DNA of 52,581 nt from positions 1 to 52,581 of the forward strand of contig NZ_JAAKDW010000017.1 in the NCBI RefSeq assembly GCF_011038845.1, given 5' to 3'. The stretch comes from Enterococcus sp. ZJ1622. GTDB lineage: Bacteria; Bacillota; Bacilli; Lactobacillales; Enterococcaceae. Below the pieces are notes generated by a model, which was not told the DNA's origin, did no database searches, and worked only from the letters and a program-made list of their open reading frames with translations. Made by a program: the position numbers and the translations under genes. Shown here one piece after another: positions 2,518 to 5,864 of the stretch (its first letter is position 1; each line of letters starts with the position of its first letter).

Positions 2518-2546
2518 TTGACGAATCAGCGAAATTCTATTACACT
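2518..2546 (+). promoter_or_regulatory. Sigma-A promoter of the trp leader and trpXYZ
   Basis: TTGACG at 2518-2523 and TACACT at 2541-2546 are separated by 17 bases, close to the vegetative consensus. Transcription would start near 2553, about 25 bases before the leader peptide start codon and 330 bases before trpX. Confidence 0.75.
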
Positions 2547-2578
2547 AAACGTAATTATTAAGGAAAGGGTGATCCACA

Positions 2579-2638
2579 ATGAACTTATCGACATTCTCAG
2601 CAGGAAGTAAAAAAAATTGGCGCAGCTGGCGTAGATAA
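2579..2638 (+). CDS. Trp-codon leader peptide of the trpXYZ attenuator
   Basis: This 19-codon reading frame encodes MNLSTFSAGSKKNWRSWRR. It has a good ribosome site (AAGGAAAGGGTGATC at 2561-2575) four bases before the ATG. Two of its last six codons are TGG (2618-2620 and 2627-2629), and Trp is otherwise a rare residue. It lies between a strong promoter and a set of alternative hairpins ending in an intrinsic terminator, upstream of a tryptophan-type transporter. This is the design of a leader peptide whose ribosome stalls when charged Trp-tRNA is scarce. The function is inferred from position, the Trp codons and the RNA structure. The peptide itself probably has no role. Confidence 0.75.
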   Translation: MNLSTFSAGSKKNWRSWRR

Positions 2639-2758
2639 GTTGTATTGATGGCGAACTTTCCCCATAGATACAACTTTTTAGAGTACAAATCTAAAATTTG
2701 TATCTATGCTAGACAAGGACATTTGACTACCGCATAGATCAACTCTATGCGGTTTTTT
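2637..2758 (+). promoter_or_regulatory. Transcription attenuator with mutually exclusive hairpins
   Basis: Five segments can pair in turn. Segment 1 (2637-2645) is complementary to part of segment 2 (2668-2676) over 9 bp. Segment 2 (2663-2673) is complementary to segment 3 (2698-2708) over 11 bp. Segment 3 (2702-2709) is complementary to segment 4 (2732-2739) over 8 bp. Segment 4 (2730-2738) pairs with segment 5 (2744-2752) over 9 bp, followed by six T at 2753-2758, which is an intrinsic terminator. Segment 1 begins in the leader-peptide stop codon. A ribosome that finishes the peptide would cover segment 1, so 2:3 and then 4:5 form and transcription ends. A ribosome stalled at the first Trp codon leaves segment 1 free, giving 1:2, then 3:4 and read-through. 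The pairings are read from the sequence; the mechanism is inferred. Confidence 0.75.
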
Positions 2759-2764
2759 GTGTGT

Positions 2765-2798
2765 AAAAGACAATTGCCGCGTGCAATTGTCTTTTTTT
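2765..2798 (+). terminator. Second intrinsic terminator in the trp leader
   Basis: AAAAGACAATTG (2765-2776) pairs with CAATTGTCTTTT (2784-2795), followed by more T to 2798. It starts only six bases after the T tract of the attenuator terminator and lies 82 bases before trpX. It has no obvious competing partner in the leader. It may tighten repression, mean that a second promoter drives trpX, or make the leader transcript a separate small RNA. Confidence 0.75.
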
Positions 2799-2880
2799 CT
2801 TGAGTTCGTTCTGATAGATAGCCGAAAACTGAACAGCTGACCATGAATTTACTAATCTACCAACCTACTAGGAGGAAAAT

Positions 2881-3930
2881 ATGAAAAATAAACGATTGAT
2901 CACCGTAGTTGCCTTGTTATTTATTTATCTGGCAGGTACATTCATCTATGAAAAAACAACCGAAAAATCTGCGGATCCAAACGAGAAAGGAGCAAGCCAG
3001 ACGACAGTCATCGGTGTCTTGCAATACGTCAGTCATCCTGCGTTAGATGAAATCTATCGAGGGATCAAAGCCGGACTGAAAGAAGAAGGGCTGGAAGAAG
3101 GGAAAAATCTGGAAATCAAATTCCAAAATGGGCAAGCAGACCAAAGCAAGCTAGCAACCATGAGCCAGCAGCTCGTCCAAGCTAATCCCGATGCTCTGAT
3201 AGGGATCGCTACACCTGCTGCACAATCTCTTGCGAATTCGACAACATCGATTCCTATCGTACTAGGCGCCGTGACTGATCCAGTCGGTGCGGGCTTAGTT
3301 GCTTCTCTAGATAAACCAGGCGGGAATATTACTGGTGTTTCAGATCAACCGCCAGTGGCTGCACAGATCCATTTAGCTACCCAACTGCTGCCAAATGCGA
3401 AAAAAGCAGGGATCTTATATGCTTCATCGGAAGATAATTCCAAATATCAAGTCAGTCAGGCAGAAGAAGCAGCGAAAAAAGAAGGACTTTCTTCAGCGAA
3501 ATATGCAGTCCCTTCAACGAATGAGATCGCACAGACTGTACAAGTGATGAGCCAAGATGTCGATTTTATTTATATCCCTCTAGACAACACGATCGCCAAT
3601 GCCATGCAGACAGTAGTGAAAGAAGCGAATAAAGCAGGGATTCCCGTTATTCCTTCGGTCGATACGATGGTCGAACAGGGTGGATTGGCAACGATCGGGA
3701 TCAATCAATACCAACTAGGTGTGCAAAGCGGGAAAATGGCTGCCTCCATTGCATCGGGAAAAGAGAAACCAGAAACGACACCTGTATTTACTTTTGATCA
3801 GGGTGACACGATCATCAATCAGAAGCAGGCGGATCTTCTGGGGATCACTGTTCCTGAAACACTCAAGGATAAAGCAAAGATCCTTACAGATGAAACAACG
3901 AAAGAATCGACAAAGGAGGAAAGCAAATGA
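2881..3930 (+). CDS. trpX: Tryptophan-type ABC transporter, substrate-binding protein
   Basis: This 349-aa protein belongs to the ABC_sub_bind (TrpX-like) family of extracellular binding proteins. Residues about 7-25 form one hydrophobic segment. There is no lipobox cysteine after it, so the protein is probably held by this N-terminal anchor rather than by lipid. The mature part has two Rossmann-like lobes, with ASSEDNSKYQ and VIPSVDTMVEQGG typical of the family. The C-terminus is charged (ETTKESTKEESK). AGGAGG precedes ATG 2881. Its stop overlaps the trpY start by four bases, showing tight translational coupling. The Trp specificity rests on the family and on the Trp-codon leader; binding of other aromatic compounds cannot be excluded. 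Confidence 0.8.
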   Translation: MKNKRLITVVALLFIYLAGTFIYEKTTEKSADPNEKGASQTTVIGVLQYVSHPALDEIYRGIKAGLKEEGLEEGKNLEIKFQNGQADQSKLATMSQQLVQANPDALIGIATPAAQSLANSTTSIPIVLGAVTDPVGAGLVASLDKPGGNITGVSDQPPVAAQIHLATQLLPNAKKAGILYASSEDNSKYQVSQAEEAAKKEGLSSAKYAVPSTNEIAQTVQVMSQDVDFIYIPLDNTIANAMQTVVKEANKAGIPVIPSVDTMVEQGGLATIGINQYQLGVQSGKMAASIASGKEKPETTPVFTFDQGDTIINQKQADLLGITVPETLKDKAKILTDETTKESTKEESK

Positions 3931-4808
3931 TTGTATCAGCGATTTCACAAGGGATGCTTTGGGCCATTCTGGGTCTAGGGATCTTTATGACTTATCGAAT
4001 CCTGGATTTCCCTGACATGACCACAGAAGGCTCCTTTCCATTAGGAGCTGCGGTATGCGTAACCGCAATTACACACGGGATCGCACCGATCCTTGCCACG
4101 ATATTAGGGGTTTTAGCTGGGATGGTCGCGGGTTTGGTGACTGGTCTTCTTTATACGAAAGGAAAGATCCCAGTGATCCTTGCCGGTATTCTCGTCATGT
4201 CTGGATTGAACTCAGTGATCCTTTTTGTTATGAAAACGCCAAATCTGTCGTTATTGAATGCACCGATTCTGCAAGATAGCTTCAGTAAACTTGGACTGCC
4301 TGATTATTTTGATACCGTGCTTTTGGGATTGATCGCGTTAGGGATTCTGATTGCCGTCTTACTGTTTTTCTTCAATACAGAATTAGGGCAAGGCTATATC
4401 GCGACAGGCGACAATGAAACGATGGCACGTTCATTAGGAATCAAGACTGACCGAATGAAAATACTAGGGCTGACTTTATCAAATGGCGTCATTGCTTTAT
4501 CGGGTGCGCTGATTGCTCAAAACGATGGTTACGCTGACGTCAATAAAGGGATAGGTGTGATCGTCATCGGGTTAGCTTCGATCATTATCGGAGAAGTTAT
4601 TTTCCAAGAATTGACTTTACCAGAGCGTCTTATCGCGATCGTTGTCGGCAGCATCATTTATCAGCTGCTGATTCTAGTTGTCATCAAATTAGGATTTGAC
4701 ACCACTTACCTGAAGCTTTTCTCAGCCATCATTCTTGCGATCTGTCTGATGATCCCTCAGGTAAAACAAGCATTGAAATTAAAAACCGGATTTGAAAAGG
4801 AGGCGTGA
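3927..4808 (+). CDS. trpY: Tryptophan-type ABC transporter, permease
   Basis: This 293-aa integral membrane protein of the BPD_transp_2 (branched-chain amino acid permease-like) family has about eight to nine hydrophobic segments spread over the whole length. A conserved region near residues 150-190 (TGDNETMARSLGIKTDRMKILGLTLSNG) matches the cytoplasmic coupling loop that contacts the ATPase. ATG 3927 overlaps the trpX stop in an ATGA arrangement, and trpZ follows three bases after the end. It forms the membrane channel through which TrpX delivers its ligand. No damage is seen. Confidence 0.82.
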   Translation: MIVSAISQGMLWAILGLGIFMTYRILDFPDMTTEGSFPLGAAVCVTAITHGIAPILATILGVLAGMVAGLVTGLLYTKGKIPVILAGILVMSGLNSVILFVMKTPNLSLLNAPILQDSFSKLGLPDYFDTVLLGLIALGILIAVLLFFFNTELGQGYIATGDNETMARSLGIKTDRMKILGLTLSNGVIALSGALIAQNDGYADVNKGIGVIVIGLASIIIGEVIFQELTLPERLIAIVVGSIIYQLLILVVIKLGFDTTYLKLFSAIILAICLMIPQVKQALKLKTGFEKEA

Positions 4809-4811
4809 CAA

Positions 4812-5582
4812 ATGACCACAATAATCACGATCAAAAACGGCAGAAAAGTCGTGAATAACGGAATGAATGAAGAAAAGGTCTTGCTAGATCAAATCAATCT
4901 CACGATCAATCAAGGAGACTTCATTACCGTTCTTGGGGGGAATGGTGCTGGGAAAAGCACGCTATTCAATACTATCGCAGGGACACTTCAGCTCACATCA
5001 GGCTCCGTATATTTTAAAGATCAGCCGATCACAAAAGATTCAGAAGAAAAGAGAGCGGCTTTTCTTTCCCGGGTCTTCCAAGATCCTAAAATGGGGACGG
5101 CACCAAGAATGACTGTTGCTGAAAATCTGCTGCTCGCACAAAAGCGAGGACAAAAACGCCCTCTTCGCTTACGCAATCTGAAAAAGCAGCGAGAACAGTT
5201 CTATCACTTATGTAAAGAAGTCGGGAATGGTCTGGAACAGCACTTGGATACTCCTGCTGGCGAATTGTCAGGTGGTCAGCGACAAGCACTTAGCTTATTG
5301 ATGGCAACGATCAAAGCGCCGGAACTGCTTTTATTGGATGAACATACTGCGGCATTAGACCCTAAAACGGCTAAATCACTGATGCAGTTGACGAACCAGC
5401 GTATCACTGAACAAAACCTGACTTGTCTGATGATCACCCACCGAATGGAAGATGCATTGAATTACGGAAATCGGCTGATCGTTTTACAAAAGGGGAAGAT
5501 TGTCCAGGATTTGTCGAACGAAGAAAAACATCGACTTTCTATGACAGATCTTCTGCAGTTTTTTGAAGAAATCGTTGACTGA
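4812..5582 (+). CDS. trpZ: Tryptophan-type ABC transporter, ATP-binding protein
   Basis: This 256-aa ABC ATPase has a Walker A motif GGNGAGKST near residue 45, a signature LSGGQRQALS near 155 and a Walker B LLLLDEHTAALDP near 175. The H-loop histidine is in MITHRMEDAL. GGAGG precedes ATG 4812. It completes a three-gene uptake cassette with trpX and trpY and powers import from the cytoplasmic side. Its end is followed by 43 bases and then the aro promoter; no clear terminator is seen between them, so some read-through into the aro operon is possible. Confidence 0.82.
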   Translation: MTTIITIKNGRKVVNNGMNEEKVLLDQINLTINQGDFITVLGGNGAGKSTLFNTIAGTLQLTSGSVYFKDQPITKDSEEKRAAFLSRVFQDPKMGTAPRMTVAENLLLAQKRGQKRPLRLRNLKKQREQFYHLCKEVGNGLEQHLDTPAGELSGGQRQALSLLMATIKAPELLLLDEHTAALDPKTAKSLMQLTNQRITEQNLTCLMITHRMEDALNYGNRLIVLQKGKIVQDLSNEEKHRLSMTDLLQFFEEIVD

Positions 5583-5625: not shown

Positions 5626-5655
5626 TTGACAACTTCCTTTGATTCGTCCTATACT
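5626..5655 (+). promoter_or_regulatory. Sigma-A promoter of the aro operon
   Basis: TTGACA at 5626-5631 and TATACT at 5650-5655 are 18 bases apart. Transcription would begin near 5662 and leave an untranslated leader of about 200 bases before aroE. Confidence 0.8.
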
Positions 5656-5763
5656 TAGGTCAATCTAAAATAGTTTGGGCGTTTTTTCAAATGATAAAGT
5701 CAGTTATTTCACAATCGAATCTAAATTCTTTCGCTCTTTGGCTGCCCGTGCAGTTTATGAGAA

Positions 5764-5837
5764 GTGGCGGAAGGATGGATTATTTTGCCACGTAGATGTT
5801 TCATACTTTTTTGTATGTTGACACTAAGTGGTTTTTT
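5764..5837 (+). promoter_or_regulatory. Candidate attenuator in the aro leader
   Basis: GCCAC at 5787-5791 can pair with GTGGT at 5828-5832. Inside it lie TAG/CTA, TGT/ACA and ATAC/GTAT steps, giving an interrupted hairpin directly followed by TTTTTT (5832-5837), the form of an intrinsic terminator. The same GCCAC can instead pair with GTGGC at 5764-5768, which would break the terminator. The T-box core sequence (TGGNACCGCG) is absent, so this is not a T-box. The structure is seen in the sequence; the regulatory role is inferred. Confidence 0.45.
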
Positions 5838-5864
5838 CTGTTTATGAAGGAGGCTCCACAATGA
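5796..5864 (+). CDS. Possible aromatic-rich leader peptide overlapping aroE
   Basis: A 22-codon frame from ATG 5796 encodes MFHTFLYVDTKWFFLFMKEA followed by PQ and ends in TGA 5862-5864, overlapping the aroE start codon. It contains five Phe, one Tyr and one Trp in the first 16 residues and spans the candidate terminator. The upstream frame from 5691 ends exactly one codon before it. There is no good ribosome site for ATG 5796 (GGAAGG is about 20 bases away), so translation is doubtful. Runs of T in the terminator produce Phe codons anyway, which weakens the case. Confidence 0.25.
   Translation: MFHTFLYVDTKWFFLFMKEAPQ

Follow-up and report, generated by a model that had tools for sequence, protein, structure and literature searches.

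Which signal adjusts transcription of a Trp transporter operon, trpXYZ, in an enterococcus, and through what device? The window, that is, the whole stretch of DNA analyzed here (52,581 nt; Enterococcus sp. ZJ1622 contig NZ_JAAKDW010000017.1, coordinates on the forward strand), carries such an operon behind a long leader region, for which a first-pass annotation had proposed a ribosome-mediated Trp attenuator. All evidence presented below is computational, both comparative and modelled. On this evidence the region is very probably a ribosome-mediated transcription attenuator that would sense charged tRNA-Trp and control trpXYZ; the reading frame, its codons, the alternative pairings and their covariation come from the sequence and its comparison with relatives, and the effect of ribosome position is modelled; stalling, folding order, termination in cells and control of a second terminator are inferred.

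Organization of the trpXYZ leader region

The features of the locus are listed in Table 1. The annotated 19-aa leader peptide gene with two TGG codons near its end was recovered, segment 1 begins inside the stop codon as had been described, and the peptide ends in WxxWRR. The region folds well beyond shuffled sequences (z −4.98; 0/200 shuffles as good). The promoter had been called strong: its motif is conserved, and TTGACG-N17/18-TANNCT precedes the leader start by 29–44 nt both in the window and in 14/14 enterococcal relatives (a hand-picked set), whereas by consensus alone TTGACG-N17-TACACT is at chance level, with 11 sites found vs 9.2 expected in shuffles.

Table 1 Features of the trpXYZ leader region and operon in the window.
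Feature	Position	Strand	Description
Promoter	2518–2546	+	−35 TTGACG 2518–2523, 17-nt spacer, −10 TACACT 2541–2546
Segment 0	2562–2589	+	RBS and start region of leader; partner segment 1 when the RNA is untranslated (minimum-energy fold)
Leader peptide gene MNLSTFSAGSKKNWRSWRR	2579–2638	+	19 codons and TAA, stop at 2636
Sensor codons (putative)	2618–2629	+	TGG at 2618 (codon 14), TGG at 2627 (codon 17)
Segment 1	2637–2651	+	Begins within stop codon; partner segment 2; covariation
Segment 2	2662–2682	+	Partner segment 1 or 3; covariation; RF04312 match starts at 2661
Segment 3	2690–2709	+	Partner segment 2 or 4; covariation
Terminator 1	2729–2758	+	Segment 4 2729–2738, segment 5 2744–2753, then U run; covariation
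Terminator 2	2765–2800	+	Segment 6 2765–2777, segment 7 2783–2795, then U run
trpX, substrate-binding protein of Trp ABC transporter	2881–3930	+	NF041285 equivalog, 468.6 bits, cut-off 390
trpY, permease	3927–4808	+	PF02653; name from position behind trpX
trpZ, ATPase	4812–5582	+	PF00005; name from position behind trpX

The genome of the window is rated 99.99% complete and gave no match to trpB; from this one missing gene, the cell probably depends on Trp uptake. Control by a T-box or by TRAP, as in other Firmicute trp genes, appears extremely unlikely here. A T-box precedes streptococcal trpX, where the one in S. suis was examined with reporters, according to the accessible part of that paper (PMC9382623), and the window's own genome contains 18 T-box matches, 12 of them above cut-off; in the window, however, no Rfam family, T-box included, reached its gathering score. 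TRAP (mtrB; PF02081) likewise had no match in this genome, and the leader contains 6 (G/U)AG triplets vs a shuffle mean of 6.8, no two of them at the tested spacing of 5–6 nt.

Other features flank the operon. An ISLre2-family transposase gene (UPF0236; 685–2151) is located upstream of the trpXYZ promoter and is followed by a 32-nt direct repeat (2211–2242 and 2441–2472, 84% alike). Upstream of aroE (5626–5860), a promoter-like site (11/12 matches) and a terminator-like hairpin occur without a clear Tyr/Phe leader; by eye, this region looks like a decayed or altered attenuator, and a hairpin lacking a clear Tyr/Phe leader was also seen by eye 5′ of aroE in some of the 13 relatives in which aroE was found.

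The leader reading frame is conserved as a gene

Comparison was based on a working set of 138 fetched matches to the Rfam family RF04312, which covers segments 2–5 (see below); these were taken best-scoring first among those listed, are nearly all from Lactobacillales and include two in one locus, L071. The loci are related by descent, so that counts across them are not independent. An aromatic leader ORF was called just upstream in 130/138 matches; seven weak matches had none, and L179 had no called start codon. Since the caller favours aromatic tails, two further tests were run. In the frame test, which accepted any ATG with an RBS match in any frame and left out one duplicate, the seven leaderless matches and 18 loci without TGG, 103 of 106 candidates were in frame with the TGG anchor and 1 and 2 were in the other frames (11, 1 and 0 with a stricter RBS). 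In the shuffle test, an ORF with a Shine–Dalgarno sequence and ATG and at least one Trp in its last 11 codons was found in 110/131 loci vs 1.3% of shuffled upstream regions, and one with at least two Trp in 73/131 loci vs 0.0% of shuffles; the seven leaderless matches had been removed before counting, and 0/7 of them would pass. These two tests suggest a short ORF with cognate codons that is conserved as a gene, as expected of a leader-peptide attenuator.

Only a single late Trp codon is present in 38/108 Trp leaders. Among the trpX loci L001–L071, a short ORF with TGG-N6-TGG was found upstream in 58/71; the 13 others are L031, whose contig starts close by, L053 from Bifidobacterium, ten streptococcal loci, and L071, which has Tyr/Phe leaders in place of a Trp leader.

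The seven leaderless matches (L084, L085, L186, L193, L210, L215 and L216; 38.1–48.3 bits) were rejected as members of the family and taken as false positives; one of them, L193, is antisense to L091, and some RF04312 matches that score as low do carry leaders. Arg was also rejected as the sensed amino acid, despite the WRR end of the leader, since the final Arg is mostly kept, or varies, while the other codons follow the downstream gene.

Alternative pairings and modelled ribosome positions

The five segments proposed to pair in mutually exclusive ways and to end in a terminator were located in the window, and both folds covary. Of the 121 regions available, 46 were hand-chosen for spread and alignability; in their alignment, the pairs of 1:2 and 3:4 were formed in 90.1% of cells and those of 2:3 and 4:5 in 94.3%. 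The covariation score of each state exceeded all 500 column shuffles and dropped on sliding by 1–3 columns, a control that favours both states because the columns were chosen from the folds. The terminator and antiterminator pairings are mutually exclusive and supported by covariation in both states.

We calculated the effect of ribosome position by equilibrium folding of partial RNA. In line with toeprinting, the front edge of a ribosome was placed some 13 nt downstream of the first nucleotide of its A-site codon. With the window RNA made to the end of segment 4, an edge at 2627–2642 gave 1:2 and 3:4 in the model, and from 2643 on mainly 2:3; with the 13-nt offset, both Trp codons fall on the 1:2 and 3:4 side and the stop codon on the 2:3 side, and edges at 2624–2626 did not yield 3:4. 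With RNA made only to segment 3, an edge at 2640–2641, corresponding to the second Trp codon, already gave 2:3, so that the first Trp codon would be the safer sensor. This fits the one-Trp leaders of lactobacilli (RWQSR and similar), which by eye seem to retain the first Trp and lose the second.

The same behaviour was predicted across loci. From the stop codon to the first sensor codon, 3:4 gained more than 2 bp in 97/106 Trp loci and 18/18 Tyr/Phe loci, and no locus showed the reverse. By both criteria, the fold flipped between the first sensor codon and the stop in 115/124 loci vs 6% with segment 1 shuffled; the remaining 9/124 failed to switch in the model. On the complete window RNA, terminator 1 wins at equilibrium even when a ribosome occupies the first Trp codon (P(4:5) 0.998), and antitermination must therefore be kinetic, decided while the RNA is being made. 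When no ribosome was placed, 2:3 averaged 13.3 bp in Trp loci vs 1.1 bp in Tyr/Phe loci, and the untranslated window RNA retained 2:3 with segment 0 paired to segment 1; in the model, termination without translation is not general, and Tyr/Phe loci differ from Trp loci.

The following sequence of events is proposed. When Trp is short, a ribosome behind the RNA polymerase would stall with TGG in its A site; its front edge would leave segment 1 free, so that 1:2 pairs and segment 3 holds segment 4, and with 3:4 formed, terminator 1 (4:5) would not form in time. Segment 5, now free, may in turn pair with segment 6 at the expense of terminator 2. With ample Trp, the ribosome would reach the stop codon and cover segment 1, allowing 2:3 and then 4:5 and 6:7 to form and terminate transcription. 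Without translation, in this window, the leader start region would hold segment 1, again leading to termination.

A second terminator downstream

The second terminator and the pairing between segments 0 and 1 were absent from the first-pass annotation, as was the RF04312 match of segments 2–5. A second hairpin with a U run was found at most 75 nt past terminator 1 in 96/130 loci; the other 34 lack it or were missed by the caller, among them 6/7 trpB-associated loci. Segment 6 can form a duplex with segment 5 and the U run behind it; the median energy of this 5:6 duplex is −13.1 kcal/mol, and in 74/96 loci it equals or surpasses the top 5% of shuffles. In a model with segment 4 masked and the RNA ending short of segment 7, 5:6 formed 10.5 bp vs 6.8 in shuffled sequences, and 89/95 loci exceeded their own shuffled mean. 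The window itself, with a duplex energy of −13.1, did no better than shuffles (6.7 vs 6.9 bp). After synthesis of segment 7, 6:7 outcompetes 5:6 at equilibrium across all loci (12.4 vs 1.2 bp), and modelled ribosome position shifts 5:6 little (6.6 vs 5.2 bp). Alignment of 30 regions out of 72, selected for ease of alignment, gave a 5:6 covariation score that beat 500/500 shuffles, but the count of double-change pairs did not (244/500 as high), and the slide control was weak (0.259 vs 0.214 at −3 and 0.200 at +3). A coupling of terminator 2 to terminator 1 through 5:6, in the manner of falling dominoes, is plausible, weaker than the main switch, and in our judgement about an even bet.

Match to the trpB motif

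Segments 2–5 of the window match RF04312, the trpB motif, over its full length with 47.4 bits (E 1.2e-5), below the gathering score of 59; among 16 loci scanned, L010, L014 and L057 exceed this cut-off. The family also matches the leader region weakly on the minus strand (2604–2710, 29.5 bits). When published, the trpB motif (SRC-39-1, Narunsky et al. 2024) was rated a strong candidate for a riboswitch whose ligand is unknown; over 900 representatives were counted among Firmicutes and Fusobacteria, most frequently before an uncharacterized ABC transporter, according to the accessible parts of the paper (PMC11109978). The window has its described traits, namely two hairpins, the second of them an intrinsic terminator, 5′ of an amino-acid gene; what it has in addition are the leader ORF, segment 1 and the second terminator, which do not figure in the parts of that description available to us. 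The term “leader peptide” is absent from the main text of PMC11109978. In open-licence literature from 2024 on, searched with selected terms, “trpB motif” was found only in that paper, and no paper was found in the open-licence literature whose title or abstract start resolves the motif.

The published first guess, a riboswitch in which a small ligand binds to segments 2–5 themselves and the ORF upstream plays no part, would account for the conserved paired core, yet we regard it as very unlikely. The leader ORF was called, with its frame kept, at nearly all of the matches in the working set; segment 2 covaries with segment 1, which is located outside the motif on its 5′ side; and one and the same core precedes Trp, shikimate, His and Leu genes with leader codons that fit them, which a single ligand does not explain. 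The authors of the motif did not themselves rule out a classic attenuator, as far as the accessible text of PMC11109978 goes.

The attenuator had been described as unusual for Firmicutes. Within its group it is not rare: RF04312 matches were found in 104/105 genomes of the family, that of the window among them, and in 211/395 of the order, and in 5/398 genomes drawn from the phylum. The contrast with T-box control holds, but leader-peptide attenuators have been reported in Firmicutes before, as the parts consulted of three papers show (PMC2965389, PMC9413887, PMC5794164).

Leader codons vary with the downstream gene

Classification of the 130 loci by the gene that follows revealed that Trp leaders precede trpX in 97 cases, trpB in 7 and other genes in 4; L137 and L138, which were called as having none, have a Trp just outside the counted tail by eye, bringing the trpX total to 99. 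Tyr/Phe leaders precede aro genes in 17 cases, TrpX-like genes in 2 and a transporter gene in 1. Several genomes contain a further RF04312 match about 3 kb further on, with a leader ending in YYFSYFR, before aroE, aroC or an AroB-like gene.

Another family of the phylum (f137), which we guess to be Clostridia-like, had RF04312 matches in 32/146 genomes, none above cut-off. We examined 46 of the 47 matches listed, the omitted one being located at a contig start, with a leader caller blind to composition; a leader ORF was found in 46/46. With class limits set after viewing the leaders, His leaders were located before hisS (7) or hisZ (1) in 8/8 cases and Leu leaders before one NSS transporter subfamily in 7/7, and the 31 Phe/Tyr leaders preceded another NSS subfamily (18), TrpY-like (8), LIVCS (3), TrpX-like (1) and other (1) genes. 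At least three His were present in 8/45 loci vs 0.0% of shuffles, at least four Leu in 7/45 vs 0.2%, and at least three Phe/Tyr in 25/45 vs 0.7%. In the ribosome-position test, from which three loci without a called terminator were dropped, 28/43 loci switched vs 3% for shuffles and 15/43 did not (His 4/8, Leu 5/6 and Phe/Tyr 19/29 switching). The leader codons therefore track the downstream gene, and related switches with Tyr, Phe, His and Leu codons suggest a re-programmable attenuator.

These swaps also bear on a TnaC-like arrest peptide, in which nascent WxxWRR would sense free Trp and the ribosome would pause at the stop and mask segment 1. A pause at the stop gives the right direction of control in the model, and by eye the leader tail is more conserved than the leader start. 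The tail becomes RWQSR, YYFSYFR, FFFSFFR, LLLLANLR or HHHH with the gene, however, and each of these would need a new binding site; moreover, the stop codon overlaps segment 1, so that RNA pairing may account for part of the conservation. We consider an arrest peptide very unlikely. The attenuator reading is favoured by the frame, the Trp codons, the covariation, the modelled ribosome position and the gene-matched codon swaps; in homologous leaders, Trp codons as well as stems proved conserved, and a lack of such conservation is what the first-pass annotation had named as refuting an attenuator of trpXYZ.

An annotated small RNA in the same genome

RF02863 (sRNA_2410) matches the window itself at 2626–2817 with 19.9 bits, below the cut-off of 61. 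In another contig of the same genome (C44; locus L303), it scores 166.5 bits, above cut-off. This paralog has the leader MRLNRIAPTQLNNFFFSYFR, with Phe codons, before a TrpX-like substrate-binding protein. This protein scores 334.8 bits against the TrpX model and falls short of the 390 set for equivalogs, which would suit a related protein that binds a different substrate. RF02863 was above cut-off at 9/11 Tyr/Phe loci scanned and had matches in 99/103 genomes of the family, 93 of them above cut-off; a Phe-type leader was found in 20/20 RF02863 loci fetched, which were the best-scoring ones, by a search that asks for such residues. In E. faecium Aus0004, sRNA 2410 was reported from RNA-seq and Northern blots as two transcripts, according to the part of the paper available (PMC5593968); the identity of RF02863 with this RNA rests on name and length (195 nt). 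Two transcripts would be consistent with a leader that has two stops. RF02863 is listed as an sRNA gene; here it matches the Tyr/Phe version and the Phe-codon paralog of the attenuator, and its sequence context suggests the 5′ leader of an operon, either for a TrpX-like transporter or for aro genes.

Relation to known systems and significance

In the trpL attenuator of E. coli and its relatives, the leader peptide has two Trp codons and ribosome position picks between alternative hairpins. The leader in the window likewise has two Trp codons, and its ribosome is proposed to make a choice of this kind. It differs in having an extra switching step, since its antiterminator needs 1:2 plus 3:4, and a second terminator, and in preceding a transporter operon. 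Related predictions may be found in the work of Panina et al. (2003) on aromatic regulation in low-GC Gram-positives and in other papers on classical attenuation.

In Firmicutes, leader-peptide attenuators have been described for His genes (PMC2965389, PMC9413887) and for ilv-leu of S. aureus (PMC5794164). In the accessible parts of these papers they share a proposed leader peptide, terminator and antiterminator with the window, and are not linked there to RF04312 or to Trp, Tyr or Phe genes. The His cases, from the B. cereus group, Peptostreptococcaceae, Lutispora and Erysipelotrichales according to the portion consulted (PMC9413887), may include relatives of the f137 His loci. The T-box (RF00230) of streptococcal trpX controls termination in the same operon by the same signal, charging of tRNA-Trp; unlike the leader in the window, it binds the tRNA directly, without a leader peptide. 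Scans of two streptococcal trpX loci, out of ten, with the T-box model gave 98.2 bits (L060; cut-off 93) and 91.7 bits, just below (L059).

The kind of attenuator is therefore already known, also in Firmicutes. As far as our literature searches go, it is new to interpret a riboswitch candidate together with an sRNA family as components of a single attenuator, and to find paralogs of it with swapped codons both inside one genome and across genomes; an interlocking of the tandem terminators would also be new, though this is less certain. We lean slightly towards the wider view that RF04312, RF02863 and the window represent one homologous Firmicute attenuator platform, directed to Trp, Tyr, Phe, Leu or His by its leader codons and in many cases built as a domino of seven segments (1:2, 3:4 and 5:6 vs 2:3, 4:5 and 6:7). 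Such a platform would be a ribosome-read counterpart of the T-box, with a fixed RNA core that is repeatedly re-specified.

If the attenuator reading is true, a published riboswitch candidate gains a mechanism, which explains why no single ligand fits its genes, and an annotated enterococcal sRNA family becomes a leader transcript. Enterococci and lactic acid bacteria would then use classical attenuation as a standard form of control for aromatic amino acids, and the codon swaps that nature has made on a single RNA scaffold would serve for testing re-programmed specificity. The leader codons may also help to predict the substrate of loosely annotated transporters.

Additional loci

Several loci had unusual surroundings. 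In L089 and L183, a Trp leader and terminator occur with no forward gene called within 700 nt, perhaps marking a lost trp operon. In L086, which gave the highest RF04312 score when the order was searched, a group II intron reverse transcriptase/maturase is the first long ORF downstream of the match. In L149, a Trp leader precedes the gene of an oligopeptide-binding protein (best match Opp4A, 534 bits, below its cut-off of 650), as though Trp starvation governed the uptake of peptides.

Six trpX loci are from Bifidobacterium (L041, L046, L049, L050, L053 and L058). RF04312 gave no match at E 0.1 in the three of them that were scanned. A Trp leader (WRCWRRYL or WRGWRS) is present in 5/6, and by eye L041, from B. 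mongoliense, is the only one of the six with the fold kept, where changes in segment 1 are matched by changes in segment 2; the Bifidobacterium copies would be accounted for by transfer from Lactobacillales.
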